From: Phreatobacter aquaticus | Lineage (GTDB): Bacteria > Pseudomonadota > Alphaproteobacteria > Rhizobiales > Phreatobacteraceae | DNA: 64,000 bases | Direction: 5' to 3' | NCBI RefSeq assembly: GCF_005160265.1 | Contig: NZ_CP039865.1 | Coordinates: forward strand, 4,054,828-4,118,827 | Part shown: one piece after another, positions 21,085 through 32,688 of the stretch | How positions within the stretch are numbered: position 1 is the first letter of the stretch | Layout of the letters: each line of letters opens with the position of its first letter | Program-made: the position numbers and the translations under genes | The notes under the pieces: model-generated | What the model saw: only the letters and a program-made list of their open reading frames with translations | What the model was told of the DNA's origin: nothing | The model's database searches: none

Positions 21085-23988
21085 TCACGGGCGGGCAACG
21101 AAGGCGATCCGCCGATTGCGGATCTTGTTCGCCAGGCTGTCGTTCGGCACGAGGGGGCGGCTCGCGCCGAACCCCTGGGGGCTCAACCGCGCCGCCGCTA
21201 TGCCCTGCTGGATCAGCAGGCTGACCACGGCCTGCGCACGGCGCTCGGACAGATCGAGATTCTGCGCGCTGGGGCCATCGGAATCCGTGTGCCCCTCGAC
21301 CGTGAAGGCGGTTGCCGGGCACTCCTTCATGACCAGGGCGATACGGTTGACCAGGGCGACGGCCTCGGGACGAAGCTGGTCCCGGCCAAGCTGGAACGTG
21401 ATCGTGCCCTGCCCCACCGCCTCGCGCACCTTCGCCTGGCATTGTTCGGCATTGTCCGGTGTGGCGGGTGGAACTGTTGCGCGCACCGGCTGCGATGTGG
21501 GCACCAGTACGGGTGCCGGAACCCGGATCTGATCGCGGCTCTGCCACCCCGTGGGCAAACCGTCACGAAGACTGTTCCGCACAGCCTCGATCTCGGCGCC
21601 GGTCACCGCCTGCCCGGCAAGGCCCAGGCTGCGGTCGGCAATATCGGCCCGTCCGCGCTCAAGCCGCGCCACGAGTTCGATGGCAAGCCGGGCCGCTGCC
21701 GCGAAGCCCTCGGGCGCGCCTTCCGCGAGTTCCTGCGCATCGCGGACCGCCAGCGGCTGAAAGGCCCGCATCGCGTTGTCGCGGTTGCTCGCCCGCACAG
21801 CGTCCGATGGCGCATAGCCCTGGAGCAGCACACCGGAGGCCGTCTTTTCGACAAACCAGCCATAGGGAGAGACGATGGGTGGACGGATCGACGCCGCATG
21901 GAGGCGCCCACCGCCCGGAAGCGCTGCCTGCCGGATCGCCAGATTGACCGCGACAAAGCCCGCTCGATCCCGCGCCTGGCCCTCGATCCGGAACGCGCCA
22001 TCCTCCAGGCGCACGGCCCCCGTGCTGAGCCGCGCCAGCTGGGCGAGAGCGAAGCGATTGGCGGCCACCCAGTCGATCGCATCGGGCTGGCCGGTTGCGA
22101 TCCGGATCCGGTCGTCCACCGCACGGCCCGGCAATGCCAGCCGCGCCGCCTCCAGGATCGCGGTCTTCTCGGCCTCCGACATGGCGACACCATCAAGCGC
22201 GATGCGGCCGTCACTGAGTGCCAGAGTCATGATGTAGGGCCGCGATACCGGCAGGGCCGCCACCACGTCTGTCGCGGCCAGCGAGAATCCCGCCGGCAGG
22301 CCGTCGGTGCGCGCGCCCGCAGCCGCCAGCGCCGCATTGTCGATTCCGGCCTGTCCCTTGCCGGTGACAGTCACACGGCCGTCGAGGATCGCCACCCTGC
22401 CCTCGCTCATGCGCGCCAGCTGGCCAAGCCCGAAACCGGCGGCTGCGCCGAAGCCGGACAAGGCACCATCCGCGATCCGTGTCTGGTCGCTGATCGTGCG
22501 GCCCTCGAACACGGCCCGTGCCTGGGTCAGCAAAGCGTCGCGCACGCTGACCGAGGGGACATGCCCCTTCAACGTGACCTCGCCGCCAGCGAGCTCGGCA
22601 GTCCACGAAAACGGCGCGATTCGCGGCGGCGAAAGGCTGAGCGACCCCGCCGTGAAGCCTTCCGGCAACCGCGCTGCCTCCGCTTTCAGCGCTTCATCGT
22701 CGTCAAACGACGCCGCGCGACCCGCGACCGCCAGACGTGTGTCGGAGAGCCCGACCTCGCCCGAAACCATGCGGACGGCGAGCCGCCCCGCCTGAACGGC
22801 CGCCTCGGCAAAGCGGGCCGGCGCCCCAAGCCCAAGCTGAATCCGGTCATCGATCGAGCGGCTGGGACCGCCGGCCCGGAGCGCCGCCAGCAGGGCATCG
22901 CGCGCCGGCTCGTCCGGGAGATGACCCGACAGCCGGACAACATCCGCTTCAACCGCGATCCCGAGGCGATAGGGCGTAATCAGCGGCGCCGTCACCGACA
23001 CTGCCCCAGCCGTGAAGCCGGCCGGCATCCGATTACGCCAGGCGGCGACCACTCCCCGGTAGGCCCCGGCATCGGGCGCGGTGCCTTCAACCGCCAGGAC
23101 CCTGTCGCGCACCGACGCGCGAGCCGAATTGAGCCGGGCCGTCTGCTCGATAAGAAACAAGGCGGCGGCCTCGAAACCGGCCGGCTCGCCACTGGCATCC
23201 TGAAGCCGGTCGACGACCGCCTGCTGGCCAAAGGCAGCATGGAGCGCCGCGATCAGCCGGCCCCGCGCCGCGCCGCCCGGGACATGGCCCGATGCGGCGA
23301 CACCCTGCGCGTCGCGCTCCAGCTCGAACAGATAGGGCGCGGCGCGCGGCAGTGCGAGTTGCAGGTCGGCCAGCCGGTAGGTGCCGGACAAGGCTGCCAT
23401 CGCGCGGCGGACGATTCCAGCCGTTTCTTCATTTTCAACAATAGCTTGCAGAGACACGTTAACGTTGTTGATGACCGCCGTACCGGAGACTGCCGAGCCC
23501 AGACTGGCCGCCAGAAGAGCAGCAGTTCCGGCGAAACCGTCCGGCGCGCCGCGACCGAATTGCAGGCGGTCGACAACGTCGCGGCCCGGCATGGCGGCAC
23601 CGATGGCGCGCAGGATGTCGCTGCGGACAGCGTCGCTCGGCACATAGCCCGTCACGACAGCACGCGTGGCACTTGTCTCGAGCGACCACAGATAGGGCTT
23701 CTGCTCGGCCATCAGGCGGGTGGTGTCAGTCACCTGCCGCACGCCTGGAACCCGCGCAACCGAAGGCGCAGCCAAGGCGCGAGCCGCCAGTTCCAGCGCT
23801 TCGCCGGCCAATACGACGTCGCGTCCGGAGACCTCCACCCTCGCCCAGGTCAGGCTCTCGGCCTTCAATTGCGCCGAGGCGCGATCGGCAATCACCTCGG
23901 ACACCAAGGGTTCCACGTCGCGCACCGCCAAAAGGCCCAGAACAGCCAGCGGGATCAGGCCGGCAATGACAGCCCAGCGCGGAAACAT
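21085..23988 (-). CDS. large envelope protein: BON-like repeats plus C-terminal OmpA domain
   Basis: 967 residues from ATG 23988, which has GGAGGAG six bases upstream; the longer frame adds 44 unconvincing residues. An N-terminal membrane segment (about 6-22) leads into a first BON-like unit. Six tandem modules of about 120-125 residues follow, each starting with a Pro-Tyr or Pro-Phe turn at about 98, 218, 339, 459, 584 and 708, then G-x-V/L-P-S and a DR..G.GAP-F segment. The OmpA/MotB peptidoglycan-binding domain (about 850-967) has TFQLGRDQLRPEA, VEGHTDSDG, LSERRAQAV and a final NRRIAFVAR. A role linking inner membrane and cell wall is inferred. Confidence 0.8.
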   Translation of the reverse strand: MFPRWAVIAGLIPLAVLGLLAVRDVEPLVSEVIADRASAQLKAESLTWARVEVSGRDVVLAGEALELAARALAAPSVARVPGVRQVTDTTRLMAEQKPYLWSLETSATRAVVTGYVPSDAVRSDILRAIGAAMPGRDVVDRLQFGRGAPDGFAGTAALLAASLGSAVSGTAVINNVNVSLQAIVENEETAGIVRRAMAALSGTYRLADLQLALPRAAPYLFELERDAQGVAASGHVPGGAARGRLIAALHAAFGQQAVVDRLQDASGEPAGFEAAALFLIEQTARLNSARASVRDRVLAVEGTAPDAGAYRGVVAAWRNRMPAGFTAGAVSVTAPLITPYRLGIAVEADVVRLSGHLPDEPARDALLAALRAGGPSRSIDDRIQLGLGAPARFAEAAVQAGRLAVRMVSGEVGLSDTRLAVAGRAASFDDDEALKAEAARLPEGFTAGSLSLSPPRIAPFSWTAELAGGEVTLKGHVPSVSVRDALLTQARAVFEGRTISDQTRIADGALSGFGAAAGFGLGQLARMSEGRVAILDGRVTVTGKGQAGIDNAALAAAGARTDGLPAGFSLAATDVVAALPVSRPYIMTLALSDGRIALDGVAMSEAEKTAILEAARLALPGRAVDDRIRIATGQPDAIDWVAANRFALAQLARLSTGAVRLEDGAFRIEGQARDRAGFVAVNLAIRQAALPGGGRLHAASIRPPIVSPYGWFVEKTASGVLLQGYAPSDAVRASNRDNAMRAFQPLAVRDAQELAEGAPEGFAAAARLAIELVARLERGRADIADRSLGLAGQAVTGAEIEAVRNSLRDGLPTGWQSRDQIRVPAPVLVPTSQPVRATVPPATPDNAEQCQAKVREAVGQGTITFQLGRDQLRPEAVALVNRIALVMKECPATAFTVEGHTDSDGPSAQNLDLSERRAQAVVSLLIQQGIAAARLSPQGFGASRPLVPNDSLANKIRNRRIAFVARP

Positions 23989-24125
23989 GCCCATCTCCTC
24001 CCCGGCAGCCACAATCGGGCACAGACCGCGTCGAACATGGCCGAGATTCTGTGGAGTCGATAGGAGCTGATCACTTTGGGCGGGGGCTATCCCCAACAAG
24101 CCCGCACACCACGGCGCCACCCGAC

Positions 24126-24154
24126 GAAAAAACCCCGGCGATTGTTCGCCGGGG
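24126..24154 (-). terminator. rho-independent terminator of the left porin gene
   Basis: Minus-strand hairpin: CCCCGGCGA paired with TCGCCGGGG (24133-24141 and 24146-24154) around a 4-base loop, followed by TTTTTTC. It lies about 30 bases after the porin stop and is nearly identical to the terminator of the right porin. Confidence 0.9.
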
Positions 24155-24159
24155 CTTCT

Positions 24160-24175
24160 TCAGATCGAGATCTGA
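24160..24175. repeat. 16-base palindrome in the 3' UTR of the left porin
   Basis: TCAGATC and GATCTGA flank a two-base centre reading GA on the plus strand. The same element, with centre TC, occurs at 31085-31100 after the right porin, so the two copies are in inverted orientation. It lies between stop codon and terminator in both cases. It could be an mRNA stem or simply part of the duplicated unit. Confidence 0.6.
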
Positions 24176-24182
24176 GACGGGA

Positions 24183-25688
24183 TCAGAAGTTCCGCTGAAC
24201 GCGGAGGGTGGTGTAGAGGTTCTGATCCGAGGTCTTGCACGCGAGGGTGCTCGCGACAACGGCAGAACCGTTGGAGTTGCAAGTGGCGTTGGCAGCCTGA
24301 GTGGCGGTGCCGGAGTTCACGCCCGAGCGGCTGATCGAGCCGTAGACAACCTCGAGGCCGAGGTCGAGGTTACGAACCGGCGACCAGACGATGTTCGCGC
24401 CAACCGTCCAGAGCTTGAAGTCCGGGAGGGTGGTCGAAGCGAGCGGAGCGTCGACGCTGGCATAGGTACCGAACAGCGACGAGCGCAGGTTCGGGGTCCA
24501 GAAGTGACGGAAGCCGGCGGCAACGCCCCAAGCCTTCGTCGTCTGGATGACATTGCCAGCAGCGGTGTTCACGATCGCATCGCGATAGTTCATCACGAGA
24601 CCGCCGCCCTGCGAGAAGTTGAACGGGCCGGAGGTGTTGTTGCGGTTGGACGTGACGCCGTCGCCGTTGCTGTTGTTGATCAGGTAGCCGAGAGCGCCGT
24701 CCGTGTAGGTCGCCTGCAACCAGAACTGATCGCCACGGGTGATCATGTCGAGGTTGAGACGCAGACCAGCGCCGATCGCGAAGCCCCACTTGTCGCCAGC
24801 GGCGGCGGTCGGCGAAATCGCGCCGTTCGTTGCCGAGGTCGTGCCAGCGTAGCCGTAGTCCTTGATCTGGCGGAACGCACCCATCAACTGGGCCGAACCC
24901 CAACCCTGATCGACGCGCAGGTTGGCGACGATGTCCGGAACGTCCTGGCGGCCATAGGTCAGGCCGTTGACCGTCGAAAGCGGACGGCTTCCGAGCGAGA
25001 TCGTCTGACCGGCAGCCGTCGTGAACGTGTCGAGGTTGCCGACTTCGGCGATACGACGATCTTCGATCGAGAGGGTGGCCGAGAAGCCCGAACCGAACGA
25101 GGCGGTGTAGGCCAGGAGGTTGGTGGATGTGGCGCGAGCCGTGGTGGGGTTGCCCAGCAGGTTCACATCGCCCTGGTAGAAGTTGAAGAACGAGGCCGAG
25201 TAGCCGAACGTGAAGCCAGCGAACTGGATGAACGCGCGGTCCATGATGGCCAGCGTCGAGCGCGGGTTGTTGTTACCGGCGTTGAGGCCCGAACCCATGT
25301 AACCCGACGACTCACCGCGACGGATGGTGAACTGGGCGAACGAGCGCAGCAGACCATATTCCGTGTTGGAGCGGGCGTCGAAGTTGATGCCGAAGCGCGA
25401 CTGGAAGGCCGAGGTGTTGTCGAAAGCGCCGTTCGAGATGTTCACGGCGCCGTTCGAGAGCGTGTTGCTCGTGTGGTTCAGATAGACCGTGTAGTCGGCG
25501 CGCACATAGCCGCCGATACGAAGGCAGGTGTCAGTGCCCGGGATGAAGAAGAAGCCAGCGCCGTACGTGTCGCAGATGCGGACGTATTCAGCGGGGGCAG
25601 CCTTGCCCGGAAGATCGGCAGCCTGAGCGCCGGCAATGGCAGCGAAGCCAGCGGCGGTGCCGAGAAGAAGGCTCTTGACCGTCTTCAT
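24183..25688 (-). CDS. outer-membrane porin (rhizobial type), intact copy
   Basis: 501 residues from ATG 25688, which has GGAGG eight bases upstream. The signal peptide MKTVKSLLLGTAAGFAAIAG ends at AQA, and the mature protein begins ADLPGKAAPAEYVRICDTYG. CLRIGGYVRADY and the terminal TTLRVQRNF (last residue Phe, needed for outer-membrane assembly) identify the porin family common in Hyphomicrobiales. It should form a 16-strand trimeric barrel for small solutes. Codon use is strongly biased to a few codons, as in highly expressed genes. The right porin (29467-31077) is closely similar, with differences gathered in presumed surface loops. Confidence 0.93.
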   Translation of the reverse strand: MKTVKSLLLGTAAGFAAIAGAQAADLPGKAAPAEYVRICDTYGAGFFFIPGTDTCLRIGGYVRADYTVYLNHTSNTLSNGAVNISNGAFDNTSAFQSRFGINFDARSNTEYGLLRSFAQFTIRRGESSGYMGSGLNAGNNNPRSTLAIMDRAFIQFAGFTFGYSASFFNFYQGDVNLLGNPTTARATSTNLLAYTASFGSGFSATLSIEDRRIAEVGNLDTFTTAAGQTISLGSRPLSTVNGLTYGRQDVPDIVANLRVDQGWGSAQLMGAFRQIKDYGYAGTTSATNGAISPTAAAGDKWGFAIGAGLRLNLDMITRGDQFWLQATYTDGALGYLINNSNGDGVTSNRNNTSGPFNFSQGGGLVMNYRDAIVNTAAGNVIQTTKAWGVAAGFRHFWTPNLRSSLFGTYASVDAPLASTTLPDFKLWTVGANIVWSPVRNLDLGLEVVYGSISRSGVNSGTATQAANATCNSNGSAVVASTLACKTSDQNLYTTLRVQRNF

Positions 25689-26194
25689 GTTGTAGACCTC
25701 CAAAGTTTCTCCTGAAAGGGAGCGTGGGTTCCTTTAACTTGCCGGTTTCCCGGCGAGGCTTAGGAGCCCTTTATTCCCCGCGAGCCGCCTTTTTTGTCTC
25801 CGGGGTGCGAAACCGTGCGAACCCAAAAGAGGCGGTGCGACCGGGGTGCCCCCCTTCGTCGCAAGGTCACCATTACCGATGGCATCCAGCCGATCAATCG
25901 AAAGAACGCCGTTCACGTCCTCCCGGCGAGGCTTTGCCCCCAAGTGTTGCAGGAAGGTCACGCAGGCCTTAACCGCCGAGCGCCTCCGCCAAGCCACTCT
26001 AAGCTCTTGGAATAGTTCTGACAATTTTCGGAATTGGTGATCACGAAACCGTTAGGTGACGTTAACCGTTACGGCGCACCGGGTTGTGCCCGTGGCCGGC
26101 ACCAACCGCCTGGACCGGATGCCGCCGAGCGCGAATCCCCGTCCCCCGAGCGCTCGGGAACAGGCGACTCGGTACCTTTTGGCGGGTGCGCGGC
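25689..26194. other. non-coding region upstream of the left porin
   Basis: About 500 bases without a convincing gene. The first 40 bases upstream of the porin start carry its ribosome site and leader. Further out lies CCGGTTTCCCGG at 25742-25753, which can form a small hairpin in the leader. Short frames here (for example 25734-26024) have no family resemblance. A GGTGATCACG element near 26036 is palindromic over eight bases. The porin promoter must lie in this stretch, but I could not place its -10 and -35 boxes with confidence. Confidence 0.5.
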
Positions 26195-26962
26195 CTAGAT
26201 GGCGGCGCCGTCGCTCACCAGTTCGCCCTCGAGCGCGCCCCTGACGGCAAGGCCGGCGGCTCTGAGGTCTGCGTGCGCGCGGTGGCGCGGGTGCTGGAGT
26301 TCGACGCTATGTAGCCCGGTAATGCGCCCGGGCGAGCCCGACAGCACGATGATCCGGTCGGCGAGATAGGTCGCCTCGTCGATATCGTGGGTGACGAACA
26401 GCACTGTCTTGCCCGTTGCCTGGCGGATTCGGGTCAGTTCGTCCTGCAGTGCCTCGCGGGTGATGGCGTCGAGCGCGGAAAACGGCTCGTCCATCAACAG
26501 GACATCCGGCTCAACCGCCAGGGCGCGCGCCAGCGCCACGCGCTGCCGCTGGCCGCCGGAGAGCTGGTGGGGGAATCGCGTGGCGAGATCGGCCAGGCCG
26601 ACAAGGGCCAGCGAGGCCAGCGCGCGGCGGTGGCGCTCGGCCCGGGTGAGGCGAAGCTTTTCGAGCCCCAGACCCACATTGTCGATCACACGCCGCCAGG
26701 GCAGAAGCCGGGCATCCTGGAAGACGAGCGCCAGGGCCGGACCGTCGGAGGAGGCGGGCGCGACGGCGACCGTTCCGCCGCTTGGCTTGGCAAGGCCGAT
26801 CAGCACGCGCAGCAATGTCGACTTGCCGACGCCGGAGGGCCCGACGATGGCCAGGAACTCGCCGCGCCGGACCGTCAGGTCCAGATTGTCGAGCACGCGG
26901 GTCTTCTGGCCATCGCGCTCGAAGGTGAGCGACAGGCCGCGGATATCGATCACGCCTTCCAT
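26195..26962 (-). CDS. ABC importer ATPase (nitrate/sulfonate/taurine type)
   Basis: 255 residues. Walker A is GPSGVGKS, the Q-loop VFQDARLLPWRRV is typical of SsuB/TauB-like ATPases, the signature is LSGGQRQRVALARAL, Walker B is VLLMDEPFSALD, and FVTHDIDEA gives the switch His. The start ATG 26962 overlaps the permease stop by 13 bases. The open frame continues upstream through the permease in another phase, but this is not homologous. Together with the permease and binding protein it forms a complete importer. The substrate is probably an organosulfur or aromatic/nitrogenous anion. Confidence 0.88.
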   Translation of the reverse strand: MEGVIDIRGLSLTFERDGQKTRVLDNLDLTVRRGEFLAIVGPSGVGKSTLLRVLIGLAKPSGGTVAVAPASSDGPALALVFQDARLLPWRRVIDNVGLGLEKLRLTRAERHRRALASLALVGLADLATRFPHQLSGGQRQRVALARALAVEPDVLLMDEPFSALDAITREALQDELTRIRQATGKTVLFVTHDIDEATYLADRIIVLSGSPGRITGLHSVELQHPRHRAHADLRAAGLAVRGALEGELVSDGAAI

Positions 26963-27687
26963 TGCAACAGCCGTCCCTGCAGAGCCACGAAGACCGTATC
27001 GAGCAGGCCGTAGAGCCCGGCCATGGTCAGCATGTAGACAACCACGATATCGGTCGCGAGCAGGCTGGAGGCCTGCATCATCCGCTGGCCGAGCCCCGCG
27101 ACGCCGAAGATCTCGGCGGCCACCACCGCCATCCAGGCCTGACCGATGGCGGTGCGGACACCAACCAGAAGGCCAGGTGTCGCCGCCGGCAGCAGAACCT
27201 TGATCAGGCGCTCGGGCCCCGAGCGGAAGCCGAAGGCATCGGCCACCTCGATCAGATCGCGATCGACCGAGCTGATGGCGCCATGGGCGGCGAAATAGAC
27301 GATCCAGAACACACCAATGGCGATGATGAAGACAGCGGCCGAGGGCGCGACGCCGAACCAGATGATGGCAAACGGCACCCAGGCGAGCCCCGGCACCGGC
27401 CTCAGCACGCGCACCACCCAGGAGGTCAGGCGCTCCATCGGCCGGTACATGCCGGTGACAATGCCGAGTGCGATGCCCAGCAGCGTGCCGGTCGCCAGGC
27501 CCAATGTGTAATGGCCGAGCGAATTCCAGATCGCGGCCAGCCATTCGCCGGAGGTGAATTCGCGCAGGAAGGCGGCCGGCAGCACGCTCGGCGGCGGCAG
27601 GAAGGCCGGGTTGACCAGACCAAGCCGCGGAACGGCTTCCCATACCGCCAGGAAGATCAGCAGGCCGAGCGGCGGCAGAAGGCGCAT
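26950..27687 (-). CDS. ABC importer permease (nitrate/sulfonate/taurine type)
   Basis: 245 residues from ATG 27687. About six membrane helices; the cytoplasmic EAA loop is seen around EVADAFGFRSGPERLIKVLLPAATPGLL, with the conserved Gly. FAIIWFGVAPSAAVFIIAIGVFWIVYF is a typical SsuC/TauC stretch. No strong ribosome site precedes the ATG. A GTG at 27705, just behind the stop of the binding-protein gene, is an alternative start. Translational coupling with both neighbours is likely. Confidence 0.85.
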   Translation of the reverse strand: MRLLPPLGLLIFLAVWEAVPRLGLVNPAFLPPPSVLPAAFLREFTSGEWLAAIWNSLGHYTLGLATGTLLGIALGIVTGMYRPMERLTSWVVRVLRPVPGLAWVPFAIIWFGVAPSAAVFIIAIGVFWIVYFAAHGAISSVDRDLIEVADAFGFRSGPERLIKVLLPAATPGLLVGVRTAIGQAWMAVVAAEIFGVAGLGQRMMQASSLLATDIVVVYMLTMAGLYGLLDTVFVALQGRLLQWKA

Positions 27688-27706
27688 GAGCGGTGTGGTT
27701 GCCACG

Positions 27707-28723
27707 TCAGGACGCCGTGGCGCGCAGGAAGAAGCTGGTGTCGAACAGGCCGTCGAGCGGCGCCTCGCGGTCGAGCGCGCCGATCTTGACCTGATAGCGC
27801 TGGAGGGCAGCGGTTGCCTCGATGATGCGGCGCGGATCGGCGGTGAACTTCGACGAGGGCGACACCAGCGCCTTGCCGATGGTCGCGCCGTCAACAATGC
27901 CCTTGCCGAGTGCCTGCTCGACATGGACCGCGGCGCGCGCGGGATCCGTGCCGATCAGCCGGACGGCCCTGACCGCGCCATTGACGATGGCCTGCACCTT
28001 GTCGCTGTGGTCGCGCAGGAAGGCCGCTGTCACGGCGATGACGGTGCCGGGCTGGTCCGGGAACATCACGCCGCCCAGAGCCACCACCTTGATGCCGGGA
28101 TCGCGCTGCGTGACGATGGTCACCGCCGGCTCGCGCACGGTGCCGCCCTCGACGGCGCCGACCAGAATGGCCTGCTGGGTGGCATCAATGCCCATGGCGA
28201 TGATCGCGGCATCGGCGCGGTCGGTCTTGGTCACCTCCCACAGCCAGTGCTGCAGCGTGGCATTCGGCACCGAGCCGGCGGGCTGGGTGGCCAGCCGCGC
28301 CGGCGATCCGGTTGCGGCCCGATAGCGCTTGAAGGCTTCCGCCGGCGCGACGCCCGGCTCGAAGAAGCGAGCGAGCTTCGGGGTGACGACGACTGTCATC
28401 TCCTCCACAGCGGTCGAGGCGACCACCTTGATGTCGATGCCGCGCGTGCGGGCGACCGCCAGCGGCGCAACGCCGGCCACATAGACGTCGATCGTGCCGG
28501 AGGCCAGCGCCTGGATCATGTTCGGCCCGGACTCGAATGTCGTGTAGCGGGTGGCGAGCCCACTGTCCTTCAGCCAGCCCTCGCGGTCCGCGATGAAGAC
28601 TGGGGCCGCCGCCAGAATCGGGATGACGCCGATCCGCGCGGTGACGGGCGCCTGGGCGAGCGCCAGGCGTCCGGAGGCGGCGACAAGGGGAGCGGCGAGA
28701 GCGGCACGGCGGGAGAGCAACAT
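27707..28723 (-). CDS. ABC importer substrate-binding protein (SsuA/TauA-like)
   Basis: 338 residues. The N-terminus MLLSRRAALAAPLVAASG has a twin-arginine-like SRRA start and cleavage near LALAQA. The mature part follows the NMT1/SsuA periplasmic-binding fold: ARIGVIPILAAAPVFIADREGWLKDSGL, then SGPNMIQALASGTIDVYVAGVAPL. This family binds alkanesulfonates, taurine, nitrate or pyrimidine precursors; the pocket residues do not settle which. It leads the three-gene importer operon. The 155 bases upstream are comparatively AT-rich and separate it from the Lrp gene. Confidence 0.85.
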   Translation of the reverse strand: MLLSRRAALAAPLVAASGRLALAQAPVTARIGVIPILAAAPVFIADREGWLKDSGLATRYTTFESGPNMIQALASGTIDVYVAGVAPLAVARTRGIDIKVVASTAVEEMTVVVTPKLARFFEPGVAPAEAFKRYRAATGSPARLATQPAGSVPNATLQHWLWEVTKTDRADAAIIAMGIDATQQAILVGAVEGGTVREPAVTIVTQRDPGIKVVALGGVMFPDQPGTVIAVTAAFLRDHSDKVQAIVNGAVRAVRLIGTDPARAAVHVEQALGKGIVDGATIGKALVSPSSKFTADPRRIIEATAALQRYQVKIGALDREAPLDGLFDTSFFLRATAS

Positions 28724-28878
28724 GGGGGAACTCCTGAATTTGCCCGTTACATAGAAAATTTATGCCAATTTCCGCAACGGGTCGCCTGAAATAATGACCG
28801 GCATTGCTGTGACTGCGGCAATCGCAATAAGAATATTCTGTTTTGCGAGATCCGATAGAATGGCGCCCTATGCGCGTC

Positions 28879-29349
28879 TCACTTGGCTGCTGGCATCGGG
28901 GGGACCTGATAGGCGGTGGTCGACTTGATCCGCTCCATCGCGAAGCGCGATGTGACGTTCTTCAGCGGGATGGTCTCGATCAGCTTCTTGTAGAACGTGT
29001 CATAGGCCGCCATGTCGGTGACCACGACGCGCAGCATGTAGTCGACATCGCCGGCTATCCGGTAGAATTCCATCACCTCCGGCAAGGCGGCCACCGTCTC
29101 GGCGAAGCGGCCAAGCCATTCGCGCGAATGGTCGTTGGTTTCGATCGACACGAAGACGGTGAGGCCGAGGCCGAGCTTTTCCGGCGACACCAGCGCCACG
29201 CGCTTCACCAGATAGCCGTTGGCTTCCAGCTTCTGGATGCGCTTCCAGCAGGGCGTCTGCGACAGGTGCACGCGCTCCGCCAGCTCGGCGATGGAGAGGG
29301 TGGCGTCCTCCTGCAGGATGGTCAGAATCTTCCGGTCGATGGCATCCAC
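28879..29349 (-). CDS. Lrp/AsnC-family transcriptional regulator
   Basis: 156 residues. The helix-turn-helix is at LSIAELAERVHLSQTPCWKRIQKLEANG (about 18-46), followed by the RAM/ligand domain with VFVSIETNDHS, EVMEFYRIAGDVDYMLRVVV and the final strand. Members form dimers and octamers and answer to amino acids. It is upstream of, and co-oriented with, the importer genes. A long palindrome at 29374-29414 lies just before its start and could be its own operator. It sits between the two porin copies. Confidence 0.88.
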   Translation of the reverse strand: MDAIDRKILTILQEDATLSIAELAERVHLSQTPCWKRIQKLEANGYLVKRVALVSPEKLGLGLTVFVSIETNDHSREWLGRFAETVAALPEVMEFYRIAGDVDYMLRVVVTDMAAYDTFYKKLIETIPLKNVTSRFAMERIKSTTAYQVPPMPAAK

Positions 29350-29373
29350 GTCAAAAATCCTCGGTTCTCAGAA

Positions 29374-29414
29374 AAATAATCCTCTTTATCCCACTTTGTG
29401 GGATAAGATTATTT
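29374..29414. promoter_or_regulatory. long compound palindrome upstream of the lrp-like gene
   Basis: The outer arms AAATAATC (29374-29381) and GATTATTT (29407-29414) and inner arms TTATCCCAC (29386-29394) and GTGGGATAA (29398-29406) are exact inverted repeats around a TTT centre. It begins 25 bases upstream of the regulator start and is the most AT-rich spot nearby. Lrp-type proteins bind AT-rich palindromes in their own promoters, so autoregulation is the simplest reading. It also lies upstream of the right porin. Confidence 0.6.
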
Positions 29415-29466
29415 CAGAAGCCCAATTTGTGGCTCTACTAGAGAATATTTTTGCGATTTTGGCAAG

Positions 29467-31077
29467 ATGGCCGGTTTGGTGCGGGTCTTTTGTGCTTGCC
29501 GATCATGCTGGCGGGAGGGCGGTGCCGGCGCTCCCGCAGACCGGTGGCGAGTCGGGGTGGCGAGTCCGGCCGAAGAAACGAGCCTTCTTCTCGGCACCGC
29601 CGCTGGCTTCGCTGCTATCGCAGGCGCCCAGGCTGCCGATCTTCCGGGCAAGGCTGCCCCCGCTGAGTACGTCCGCATCTGCGACACGTACGGCGCTGGC
29701 TTCTTCTTCATCCCGGGCACCGACACCTGCCTTCGTATCGGCGGCTTCGTTCGCGCCGACTACTCGGTCTATCTGAACCACACCAGCAACATCCTGGCCG
29801 CTGGCAACAACGGCACCGCTGGCAACATCTCGAACGCCGCCTTCGACAACTCGTCGGCTTTCCAGTCGCGCTTCGCGATCAACTTCGACGCCCGCTCCAA
29901 CACGGAATATGGTCTGCTGCGCTCGTTCGCTCAGTTCACCATCCGTCGCGGTGAGTCGTCGGGTTACGTTGGTTCGGGCCTCAACTCGTACAACAACAAC
30001 CCGCGCTCGACGCTGGCTGTCATGGACCGCGCGTTCATCCAGTTCGCTGGCTTCACGTTCGGCTACTCGGCCTCGTTCTTCAACTTCTACCAGGGCGACG
30101 TGAACCTGCTGGGTAACCCCACCACGGCTCGCGCCACCGGCACCAACCTGCTGGCCTACACCGCCTCGTTCGGTTCGGGCTTCTCGGCGACCGTGTCGCT
30201 CGAAGATCGCCGCATCACCGAAATCGGCAACCTCGACGCTGCCGTTCTGGGCACCAACGGTTCGTCCGTTTCGCTCGGCAACCGTCCGCTCTCGGGTCTC
30301 GGTGGCCTCACCTACGGCCGCAACGACGTCCCGGATATCGTCGCCAACCTGCGCGTCGATCAGGGTTGGGGTTCGGCCCAGTTGATGGGTGCGTTCCGCC
30401 AGATCAAGGACTACGGCTTCGCTGGTTCGACCAACACCGCTACCGGTGGCACGATCCCGACCGCCGCTGCTGGCGACAAGTGGGGCTACGCCATCGGCGC
30501 CGGCCTCCGTCTCAACCTCGACATGATCGCTCGTGGCGATCAGTTCTGGTTGCAGGCGACCTATGCTGACGGCGCTCTGGGTTACGTGATCCTGAACGGC
30601 AACGGCGACGGCATCACTGCCAACCGCAACAACACCTCTGGCCCGTTCAACTTCTCGCAGGCTGGCGGCGTTGTGTACAACTATCGCGATGCGATCGTGA
30701 ACACCGGTCTGGTGAACCCGGCGATCCAGACGTCGAAGGCCTGGGGCGTTGCCGCCGGCTTCCGTCACTTCTGGACCCCGAACCTGCGCTCGTCGCTGTT
30801 TGGTACCTATGCTCGCGTCGACGCACCGCTCGCTTCGACCCTGCCGGACTTCAGCCTCTGGACCGTTGGTGCAAACCTCGTCTGGTCGCCGGTTCGTAAC
30901 CTCGACCTCGGCCTCGAGGTTGTTTACGGCTCGATCAACCGTACCGGCGTGAACGCCGGCGGCGCTGCCACCGCGACTTCGTGCGGCGTCGGCTCGGCCA
31001 TCGTCGCCGCCACCGGCGCGTGCAAGACCTCGGATCAGAACCTCTACACCACCCTCCGCGTTCAGCGGAACTTCTGA
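29467..31077 (+). CDS. outer-membrane porin, second copy with replaced 5' end (possibly silent)
   Basis: From base 29581 onward the frame encodes the same porin as 24183-25688: SLLLGTAAGFAAIAGAQA, ADLPGKAAPAEYVRICDTYG, and the same Phe end. The normal beginning MKTVK and its GGAGG ribosome site are missing. Unrelated sequence precedes, with an in-frame ATG at 29467 and a GTG at 29557, neither with a good ribosome site. The ATG start would give a 56-residue export signal of odd composition; the GTG start would put two Glu in the n-region. Body, 3' UTR and terminator are intact, without frameshifts. Either it is unexpressed or it is read from an unrecognised start. Confidence 0.8.
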   Translation: MAGLVRVFCACRSCWREGGAGAPADRWRVGVASPAEETSLLLGTAAGFAAIAGAQAADLPGKAAPAEYVRICDTYGAGFFFIPGTDTCLRIGGFVRADYSVYLNHTSNILAAGNNGTAGNISNAAFDNSSAFQSRFAINFDARSNTEYGLLRSFAQFTIRRGESSGYVGSGLNSYNNNPRSTLAVMDRAFIQFAGFTFGYSASFFNFYQGDVNLLGNPTTARATGTNLLAYTASFGSGFSATVSLEDRRITEIGNLDAAVLGTNGSSVSLGNRPLSGLGGLTYGRNDVPDIVANLRVDQGWGSAQLMGAFRQIKDYGFAGSTNTATGGTIPTAAAGDKWGYAIGAGLRLNLDMIARGDQFWLQATYADGALGYVILNGNGDGITANRNNTSGPFNFSQAGGVVYNYRDAIVNTGLVNPAIQTSKAWGVAAGFRHFWTPNLRSSLFGTYARVDAPLASTLPDFSLWTVGANLVWSPVRNLDLGLEVVYGSINRTGVNAGGAATATSCGVGSAIVAATGACKTSDQNLYTTLRVQRNF

Positions 31078-31084
31078 TCCCGTC

Positions 31085-31100
31085 TCAGATCTCGATCTGA
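31085..31100. repeat. 16-base palindrome in the 3' UTR of the right porin
   Basis: TCAGATC and GATCTGA around a TC centre, directly after the stop codon. It matches the element at 24160-24175 in inverted orientation. It may act as an RNA stem or may be duplicated along with the porin. Confidence 0.6.
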
Positions 31101-31105
31101 AGAAA

Positions 31106-31133
31106 CCCCGGCGAGCAATCGCCGGGGTTTTTT
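31106..31133 (+). terminator. rho-independent terminator of the right porin gene
   Basis: CCCCGGCGA pairs with TCGCCGGGG around a GCAA loop, followed by six T. The stem is identical to that of the left porin terminator; only the loop differs. Confidence 0.9.
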
Positions 31134-31206
31134 CGTTGATGATGGTGTGAGATCCGGCAATTCCGGCGCACTTGGCCCCGAGTGAAAAGCCCCCTGCCCC
31201 AAACCC

Positions 31207-32688
31207 TCAAGCTGCGTTGCGCTGATCGGTCCGGTCGGGCGAGGGTAGCGGCATCTGGCAAAGCGCCTCGTGCATCTGCCGCAACGTCACATTGCCATAG
31301 CGCCTGGCCGCGCTGATCTGCGCATGGCCAACGATGGCATCGGTGATTTTCTCGGGGATTCCGACCGAAAAGGCCTTTTCCTTGAACCAGTGCCGCCAAG
31401 CATGGTTCGGATCCTTGCCGGCGGAACGGCCGATCTCCAATCCAAGCGAATGGATCCACTCGGTCATCCGGTTATAGGTGGTTCGGCCGGGATAATAGGG
31501 ATCGGCACCCGCATCGCCGACAACAGCCGCGTCGACCTTGCGATAGGATCGGATGAACAGCCGTTCCGACGTTCCCGATTGCACGAAAGCGATGAATCCG
31601 CGCTCGATCAGCGCCGGATGAAGCGGAACCAGCCGTTCGGAAGCCGCGGTTTTCACCGGGCCAGCCTTGCGCGACACCTTCACGCACCAGATTCCGTCGA
31701 CGCACACCACGTCTTCCCGACGCAGATTGACCATGGTCGCAACGCGGCTTCCGGTCAGCGCGGTCAGCCATGGAATCCAGCGGCGGCTGGCAATACGCTC
31801 GCAATCCGCCGCCTTGAGGATAATCGCCGCTTCCTCATCCGAAAAAGCCAGCATTTTACGCGATGTCACCAGCCGGCCGCTGCGCACGCGGACCCCGGAT
31901 GTCGGGTCATTGGGAACGAGATCGTTCTCAACGCCGAACCGGAACAGCGATCGCAGCGCGGCGAGATCGGAATCCCGCGCGGTGCGCACATGCCGTCCCG
32001 TCTGGATCAGATGATCTCGATAGGCCCGCACATCATGCGCGGTTACCCGTGCCGGATCGGCATGTCCCAGAAAATGCTCGAAGCGACCGACCAGCGTGCG
32101 CCAATAGGGTGGCGTGGTCGGCGCGCCTCCGACCGCCAGATGATGGCGGCTCCAGAGGTCGAAAAGCTCGGTGAAGGTGAGGCTTGCCGAAACGGGTTCG
32201 GCCGCCGGCACCGGTGCGGGTTCCGCCTTCGCGGCCGGCAAGGCGGCCCTGGAATCACTGGAATCCGTTGAAACCAGCGCCAGGCGCGCCGAAATCGGCC
32301 GATCGTCCCGGGCATTGCCGCTGTCGTGCAGGGTTGCGAGCACCTGAAACGAGATCGCGGCCGCAAAATATTTCGCTTCCTGCAGCGTGAGAGCCGAAGT
32401 CGGAATGGCAACGACTTCGTCGACCGTCACATCGAAGGCCAATCCGTCGACCCGCACCGCCACCGAGGAGCCGCGGAACCGGTCGATCAGCTCACCCGCC
32501 AGCGGCAGCGCGAAGTGAAAATCACCCGCCGCCCCCAGTCGCAATTCGGGTTCTCGCGCGATCAAGCCCACGACCGATCCATGCTCCTCACCTAGCGTCG
32601 AAGCGCAGATGCACTCCGACTTATGACGATTGCGCAAGACCGACATCCAACAACGGATTGAAGTCGGGCCATCGATCGCCCGCGCCAA
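31207..32688 (-). CDS. tyrosine recombinase/integrase
   Basis: 493 residues from a TTG start at 32688 that has AGGAG eight bases upstream; no better ATG was found. The N-terminal 165 residues are of unrecognised type, then a core-binding SAM-like domain (about 168-265) and the catalytic domain (about 275-475). All catalytic residues are present: Arg315 (TGSR), Lys346, His429 and Arg432 (HAWRHWF), His455 (GHAQ), Tyr464 (RRYGN). No excisionase, phage genes or tRNA-linked attachment site are adjacent. It is convergent with the right porin, 73 bases beyond the terminator. Confidence 0.88.
   Translation of the reverse strand: MARAIDGPTSIRCWMSVLRNRHKSECICASTLGEEHGSVVGLIAREPELRLGAAGDFHFALPLAGELIDRFRGSSVAVRVDGLAFDVTVDEVVAIPTSALTLQEAKYFAAAISFQVLATLHDSGNARDDRPISARLALVSTDSSDSRAALPAAKAEPAPVPAAEPVSASLTFTELFDLWSRHHLAVGGAPTTPPYWRTLVGRFEHFLGHADPARVTAHDVRAYRDHLIQTGRHVRTARDSDLAALRSLFRFGVENDLVPNDPTSGVRVRSGRLVTSRKMLAFSDEEAAIILKAADCERIASRRWIPWLTALTGSRVATMVNLRREDVVCVDGIWCVKVSRKAGPVKTAASERLVPLHPALIERGFIAFVQSGTSERLFIRSYRKVDAAVVGDAGADPYYPGRTTYNRMTEWIHSLGLEIGRSAGKDPNHAWRHWFKEKAFSVGIPEKITDAIVGHAQISAARRYGNVTLRQMHEALCQMPLPSPDRTDQRNAA

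Follow-up and report, generated by a model that had tools for sequence, protein, structure and literature searches.

In the genome of Phreatobacter aquaticus (a single contig of 4,974,952 bp, here G000), two similar porin genes point away from each other on opposite strands across 3.9 kb. They lie in a stretch of 64,000 nucleotides (NZ_CP039865.1, positions 4,054,828 to 4,118,827; the window), one beside a gene for an OmpA/BON protein and the other beside a gene for a tyrosine recombinase; the two copies are referred to as OmpA-side (left) and recombinase-side (right). The left copy has an intact start and the right copy is beheaded. Comparison across the genus makes it very probable that the pair is a DNA-inversion switch, whatever its catalyst. 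The segment between the two genes would bear, at one of its ends, the only promoter, leader and ribosome site together with codons 1–4. By recombining at their inverted 5′ ends, the porin bodies would flip the segment and place the start on either of them, leaving one expressed and the other silent. Only the headed copy (ON) is presumed to be expressed; the beheaded copy is called OFF.

Two Orientations of the Segment

What is the evidence that the segment inverts? The most telling is that a relative, G008, holds both orientations in one assembly. Its single contig of 7,354,671 bp contains an untrimmed circular overlap, in which bases 1–28968 recur at 7325767–7354671. The outer flanks of the locus are collinear at both contig ends (19.7 kb at 99.6% and 4.1 kb at 98.5%), and the inter-porin segment is reversed between them: at the contig start the OmpA-side copy carries the intact start, at the contig end the recombinase-side copy. 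The first base of codon 5, an A/C marker, travels with the segment, and in the left body the other 132 of 133 diagnostic sites stay put together with the 3′ end (112 before the stop codon). The crossover is bounded to offsets 1–175 from codon 5, within roughly the initial 12% of the homology.

Orientation also differs between species. The OmpA-side copy is ON in G000, G002, G007 and at the contig start of G008, and probably in G001, to judge by the recombinase at the opposite side; G009, G011 and the contig end of G008 have the recombinase-side copy ON. On the OmpA side, the ON porin of G002 and the OFF porin of G009 share 93% identity; the segments of these two genomes are 84% alike, yet opposite copies are ON. 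The ON porin of G005 is 92% identical to the OFF porin of G011. As judged from these comparisons, the start moves with the segment and the porin bodies keep their places. Opposite orientation in relatives, for which an earlier note made from the window's sequence had proposed to look, is thus found both within G008 and between species.

The G011 case rests on a metagenome-assembled genome (MAG) with the porins on separate contigs. Its OFF end adjoins apparent FAD oxidoreductase and QueC genes (loci L117, L118 and L132; by eye). This split layout may reflect either a very large inversion or a problem of the MAG.

One Start for Each Porin Pair

The two genes of the window are the only matches to the porin in the 4.97-Mb genome of G000 (E ≤ 0.001). 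Both score far above the curated cut-off of 22 bits for Porin_2 (PF02530), with 208 bits for the left and 203 for the right, and the right frame is open to the same ...LRVQRNF end as the left. The proteins are 85% identical from codon 5 onward. At the nucleotide level, inverted arms of 421 nt (92%), 250 (88%), 212 (95%), 173 (88%), 175 (86%), 128 (88%) and 117 nt (95%) span nearly the whole porin genes and the 3′ hairpin/terminator, far above chance. The earlier note's description of back-to-back porins of about 500 residues, sharing a signal core, strands and a 3′ palindrome with terminator, is borne out. An AlphaFold model of the porin has a mean pLDDT of 71, with the long loops poorly resolved, and its best Foldseek matches are porins (DcaP, OmpF and PorB; best TM by query 0.54).

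The right body lacks the leader, the ribosome site and the ATG, and its homology to the left copy begins at 29580 (GAGCCTTCTTCTCGGC), at codon 5–6. The 130 bases upstream of the two porins show no likeness above shuffles (253 of 500 shuffles reached the score). The earlier note had assigned promoter, ribosome site and start to the left copy alone; the leader, the GGAGG and the ATG are there, and the promoter is presumed from the strongly conserved leader of about 280 nt; a scan for promoter consensus sequences turned up a single weak site of sigma-70 type. In-frame start codons do precede the right copy as well. The closest of them, a GTG seven codons ahead, has no GGAGG in front and would give an acidic, not basic, N-terminus (by eye). 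At window positions 25676–25975, blocks of the leader are kept in nearly all 12 genomes of the genus, for example GGGGGGCACCCCGGTCGCACCGCC, which suggests a structured or regulated 5′ leader; an Rfam search of the leader returned nothing at E ≤ 1.

Twelve genomes of the genus were compared, the window's included. Exactly one start with the conserved leader is found in all 12, and the leader of about 280 nt stands at every intact end. Nine genomes have two porin 5′ ends (G000, G001, G002, G003, G006, G007, G008, G009 and G011); in G006 and G011 the two porins are on different contigs, and a contig end truncates one body or more in G001, G003 and G006. In all nine, one end is intact and one beheaded, as in the expression site and silent cassette that the earlier note had recognised, and identity begins within codon 5 each time. 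Is the OFF end a decayed leader? Shuffle tests on eight pairs (G003 left out) spoke against this in seven, where the beheaded end shows no likeness to its own leader beyond shuffles (24/500 in G006, 143–493/500 in the rest). Only the beheaded end of G007 fits, resembling its own ON leader (0/500) as a leader relic. The OFF end of G006 (contig C8, locus L110), where the contig breaks within the porin, adjoins an apparent short-chain dehydrogenase gene (by eye).

Each of the remaining three genomes (G004, G005 and G010) has one porin, whose start is intact. In G004 and G005 an Lrp gene is the porin's upstream neighbour on the same contig. The lone intact porin of G010 (locus L116) is oriented away from the OmpA/BON gene, with about 1.1 kb between them, a layout that the other genomes do not share; it looks as if the OmpA-side body had been lost. 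G008 has a third porin (C1:3939343–3940755, locus L114), with no switch core and no partner within the 18 kb read.

Silent Copies, Surface Loops and Cargo

All seven whole beheaded bodies (G000, G001, G002, G007, G008, G009 and G011) are open to their native end. Between the OFF orthologs of G001 and G007, dN is 0.018 and dS 0.173, a dN/dS of about 0.10 for this one pair, without a significance test. By these measures the silent porin copies appear to be kept. Left and right copies differ by dN 0.097 and dS 0.270 in G000, and by dN 0.057 and dS 0.149 in G008.

Long porin loops face outward. Counted after the signal peptide on the AlphaFold model, the copies of G000 differ at 66 of 255 loop columns and 16 of 226 strand columns (Fisher p = 2e-8), in agreement with the earlier note, which had placed the differences mainly in presumed surface loops. 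Residues 166–187, the presumed constriction loop, show no difference in 22 positions. With the differences concentrated in long loops, the payoff of switching is read as surface variation, presumably of a phage receptor or antigen.

Between the cores of G000 lie genes for an ABC ATPase, a permease, a binding protein and an Lrp/AsnC regulator, all on the minus strand. G000 has a segment of 3.9 kb, G008 one of 5.2 kb and G003 one of 5.6 kb, against 577–633 bp in G001, G002, G007 and G009. Since the length varies from 0.6 to 5.6 kb, the ABC/Lrp genes are optional cargo: the earlier note's segment of ABC importer plus Lrp gene holds for G000, and these genes are absent from the 0.6-kb segment of the four species.

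Candidate Recombinase and Site of Exchange

Which enzyme might catalyse the flip? A gene for a tyrosine recombinase, missed by the earlier note, lies tail to tail with the distal porin in seven of the 12 genomes (G000, G001, G002, G007, G008, G009 and G011). It was not found beside the porin in the three single-porin genomes; a search gave no match in G004 or G010, and only distant ones in G005 (best 35% identity), on other contigs. Residues R315, K346, H429/R432, H455 and Y464 are invariant in all six aligned recombinases (window included, G001 left out), giving the R-K-H-xx-R-H-Y pattern; we take their roles from what is known of the tyrosine recombinase family. The protein matches the phrog_1 integrase at 2.1e-31 and the XerD model at 2.9e-9, the latter under its cut-off. 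The G001 match has one internal stop near its beginning, which probably lies upstream of the true start.

Outside the genus, recombinase matches are weaker (61 genomes; best 40% identity). When these were paired with porin matches from 41 genomes, eight genomes had both: in seven they are on different contigs, and in G038 about 0.58 Mb separates them on a shared contig. At 76 porin loci, 74 of them outside the genus and many short or cut by contig ends, no recombinase match was found at E ≤ 1e-6.

The left and right switch cores share 16 bases, of which the G000 genome contains no further exact copy. Offsets 2–19, 18 bp at the crossover edge, are identical between the two copies in all nine two-ended genomes. 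On the strength of its linkage, its absence beside single porins, its invariant residues and this identical stretch, the adjacent recombinase is probably the catalyst, with RecA recombination as the alternative. The earlier note had envisaged a homologous inversion of about 3.9 kb. The inversion itself is supported by G008 and by the species pairs; since the recombinase is conserved beside the distal porin, a site-specific event is presumed to be more likely than a purely homologous one.

A fuller picture is also favoured, by a narrow measure: a dedicated, genus-wide module in which the recombinase would cut in signal-peptide codons (about GAGCCTTCTTCTCGGC) and swap promoter, leader and first codons between complete bodies, so that in some species the ABC importer and Lrp gene reorient too. 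Its driver would be phage or predator pressure on the loops of free-living bacteria, not host immunity.

Outside the genus, seven core sites were read (two in G143, three in G071 and two of six in G395), and all follow an intact start; in part, then, the core reflects old codon usage of signal peptides. In G004 a second core copy lies outside any porin. An imperfect dyad around TTCTTCTC, looked at only by eye, is not put forward here. In G071 three contigs (loci L138, L139 and L140) break near porin 5′ ends with nearly identical starts, which may point to a porin family with multiple copies in a different family of the order.

Alternative Explanations

Several observations weigh against an inversion switch or against its proposed catalyst. 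G000 is known in one orientation only, and most relatives are draft assemblies, several of them MAGs. The beheaded ends of G001 and G007 keep a GTG directly before codon 5, and that of G007 also a GGAGG upstream, so weak translation of the OFF copy is possible in both. In G003 and G006, where contigs break within the porins, the recombinase went undetected. Its AlphaFold model is poor (pTM 0.33), and it scores 24.3 bits against PF00589, under the cut-off of 27.1, so that its assignment rests on the catalytic residues and phrog_1. The 16-mer core is present in 29 of 397 order-wide genomes (12 of the genus and 17 others), and it turns up in other families' porins, with intact starts in all three genomes whose context was read, so it does not prove a recombinase site. 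Finally, the two porins of G009 (locus L115) are nearly identical, differing at one position, over a 5′ tract of about 540 nt, where the G002 and G004 orthologs differ; the tract may be either a recent conversion or a deep crossover. Homologous exchange is the easier explanation for it, which suggests that such exchange also happens.

The same switch could be flipped by general, RecA-dependent recombination between porin 5′ ends or bodies, with the recombinase unrelated. This variant, nested within the preferred explanation, is less probable. It would be helped by the long arms (1.56 kb at 92.5% in G008; 86–95% in G000), by the exchanged tract of G009 and by the 175-bp width of the G008 crossover interval, and the sharp boundary at codon 5 could be the mere end of homology. 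It has to contend with a recombinase whose catalytic residues are intact beside the distal porin in seven genomes and which is not found beside three single porins, with the identical offsets 2–19, and with a G008 crossover so near the start of the homology. Moreover, the bodies of G002, G007, G009 and G011 differ strongly past the shared 5′ part (47–93% identity per 90-nt bin), so few crossovers in the bodies persist. Could the inverted copy in G008 be an assembly error at inverted repeats? The contig end is of low quality, with frameshifts, and its right porin is a blend, in which 79 of 133 diagnostic sites are right-like, 35 left-like and 19 neither; for these reasons the case leans on the left body and the flanks. 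Such an artefact is unlikely, as it would take a pair of wrong joins that happen to recover the proper outer flank (4.1 kb at 98.5%); the orientation differences between species do not depend on G008.

Less likely still is an archive like Brucella omp2a/omp2b, in which the beheaded copy would only donate sequence by gene conversion. That locus has opposite orientation, gene conversion and one expressed copy, according to the part of the source consulted (PMC7050475), and the tract of G009 is conversion-like; against this, the start changes sides between orthologs (G002/G009 and G005/G011) and within G008, and conversion of a body would not reverse a 5.2-kb segment. Decay is the least credible account. 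A duplicate cut by deletion would lack leader, ribosome site and native start, as the right copy does, but the seven whole beheaded bodies all remain open to their native end, and the one OFF/OFF pair has a low dN/dS.

Features of the Locus

The coordinates of the locus in the window are collected in Table 1. The OmpA/BON gene, directly downstream of the left porin, is a conserved neighbour, syntenic within the genus and beyond. A relative of it follows single porins in other genera (Bosea, Methylobacterium and Enterovirga loci), which suggests that the OmpA-side porin is the ancestral copy.

Table 1. Features of the porin locus, in window positions.
Feature	Position	Strand	Remarks
OmpA/BON protein, left-flank marker	21085..24120	-	PF00691, PF04972; start uncertain
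Left porin 3′ palindrome and terminator	24124..24182	-	One arm of repeat I4
Left (OmpA-side) porin, Porin_2	24183..25688	-	501 aa, starts MKTVKSLLLG; intact, presumed ON
Left switch core GAGCCTTCTTCTCGGC	25659..25674	-	Signal-peptide codons 5-10, at inversion edge
Predicted invertible segment	25675..29579	.	About 3.9 kb; homologous segment in both orientations in G008
ON end of segment: conserved leader (~280 nt)/presumed promoter, ribosome site, codons 1-4	25677..25975	-	12-genome alignment; blastn between segments
Left porin ribosome binding site GGAGG	25697..25701	-	Sequence
ABC ATPase	26195..26962	-	PF00005, 109 bits; start approximate
ABC permease	26950..27705	-	PF00528; start approximate
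NMT1/SsuA-like substrate-binding protein	27707..28723	-	PF13379; TIGR01728 under its cut-off
Lrp/AsnC-family regulator	28879..29349	-	PF01037, PF13404
Right (recombinase-side) porin body, Porin_2	29578..31077	+	Without native start; presumed silent
Right switch core, same 16 bases inverted	29580..29595	+	Sequence
Right porin 3′ palindrome and terminator	31078..31136	+	One arm of repeat I4
Tyrosine recombinase, candidate catalyst	31207..32688	-	Real start probably near 32570, from orthologs

Relation to Known Systems

Xer1 of Mycoplasma agalactiae is a tyrosine recombinase. In the vpma locus of that species and the vsa locus of M. pulmonis, two papers describe a single promoter and promoterless silent surface genes, to which inversion hands the promoter; at vsa it also hands over an N-terminal coding part, and at vpma hybrid genes also arise without Xer1, through recombination at shared sequence (PMC5634654, PMC4534519). 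The Phreatobacter locus is similar in that one presumed promoter and start would serve two bodies, one of them being without it. As reported for vpma, recombinase and homologous exchange may both act here. In contrast, vpma and vsa are multi-cassette lipoprotein families of wall-less bacteria, and here there are two outer-membrane porins in Hyphomicrobiales; the systems are likened by layout, not by sequence.

In Campylobacter fetus, opposed sapA homologs that share their 5′ ends flank a promoter segment of about 6 kb, which includes transporter genes; the title of one paper refers to sap inversion in the absence of RecA. The porin locus has a comparable arrangement, although the sap product is an S-layer protein and not a porin. 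As in systems of the vpma, vsa and sap type, both orientations of the promoter segment exist (G008; G002 against G009; G005 against G011).

Brucella omp2a and omp2b belong to Porin_2. In the part of the source consulted, these genes run in opposite directions with a gap of about 830 bp and are 82–100% identical; only omp2b has been shown to be expressed, and their variation, mostly in loops, is attributed to gene conversion (PMC7050475). The loci share a divergent pair of similar porins; in G009 one tract looks conversion-like. Here, the start also changes sides, which goes beyond a gene-conversion model; no inversion switch is reported for Brucella in that part of the source.

According to the sections consulted of one study, RecV of C. 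difficile is a tyrosine recombinase that flips segments beside surface genes (cwpV, flagella), most characterised switches have their recombinase nearby, and none of four alphaproteobacterial samples was positive in a survey of invertible DNA (PMC5903667). The segments of the C. difficile switches described there are typically short, intergenic or untranslated and serve one gene, in contrast to the choice between two coding bodies proposed here. In the open-access literature searched, no report of an inverting porin pair in Alphaproteobacteria was found.

General porins are usually viewed as constitutive or regulated channels, not as genes swapped by DNA inversion, and Phreatobacter is an environmental bacterium. 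If the switch is real, it is a warning that a 'headless' gene resembling a pseudogene may represent the alternative allele of a switch, and an environmental bacterium able to switch its porin would allow surface variation driven by phages to be tested directly.

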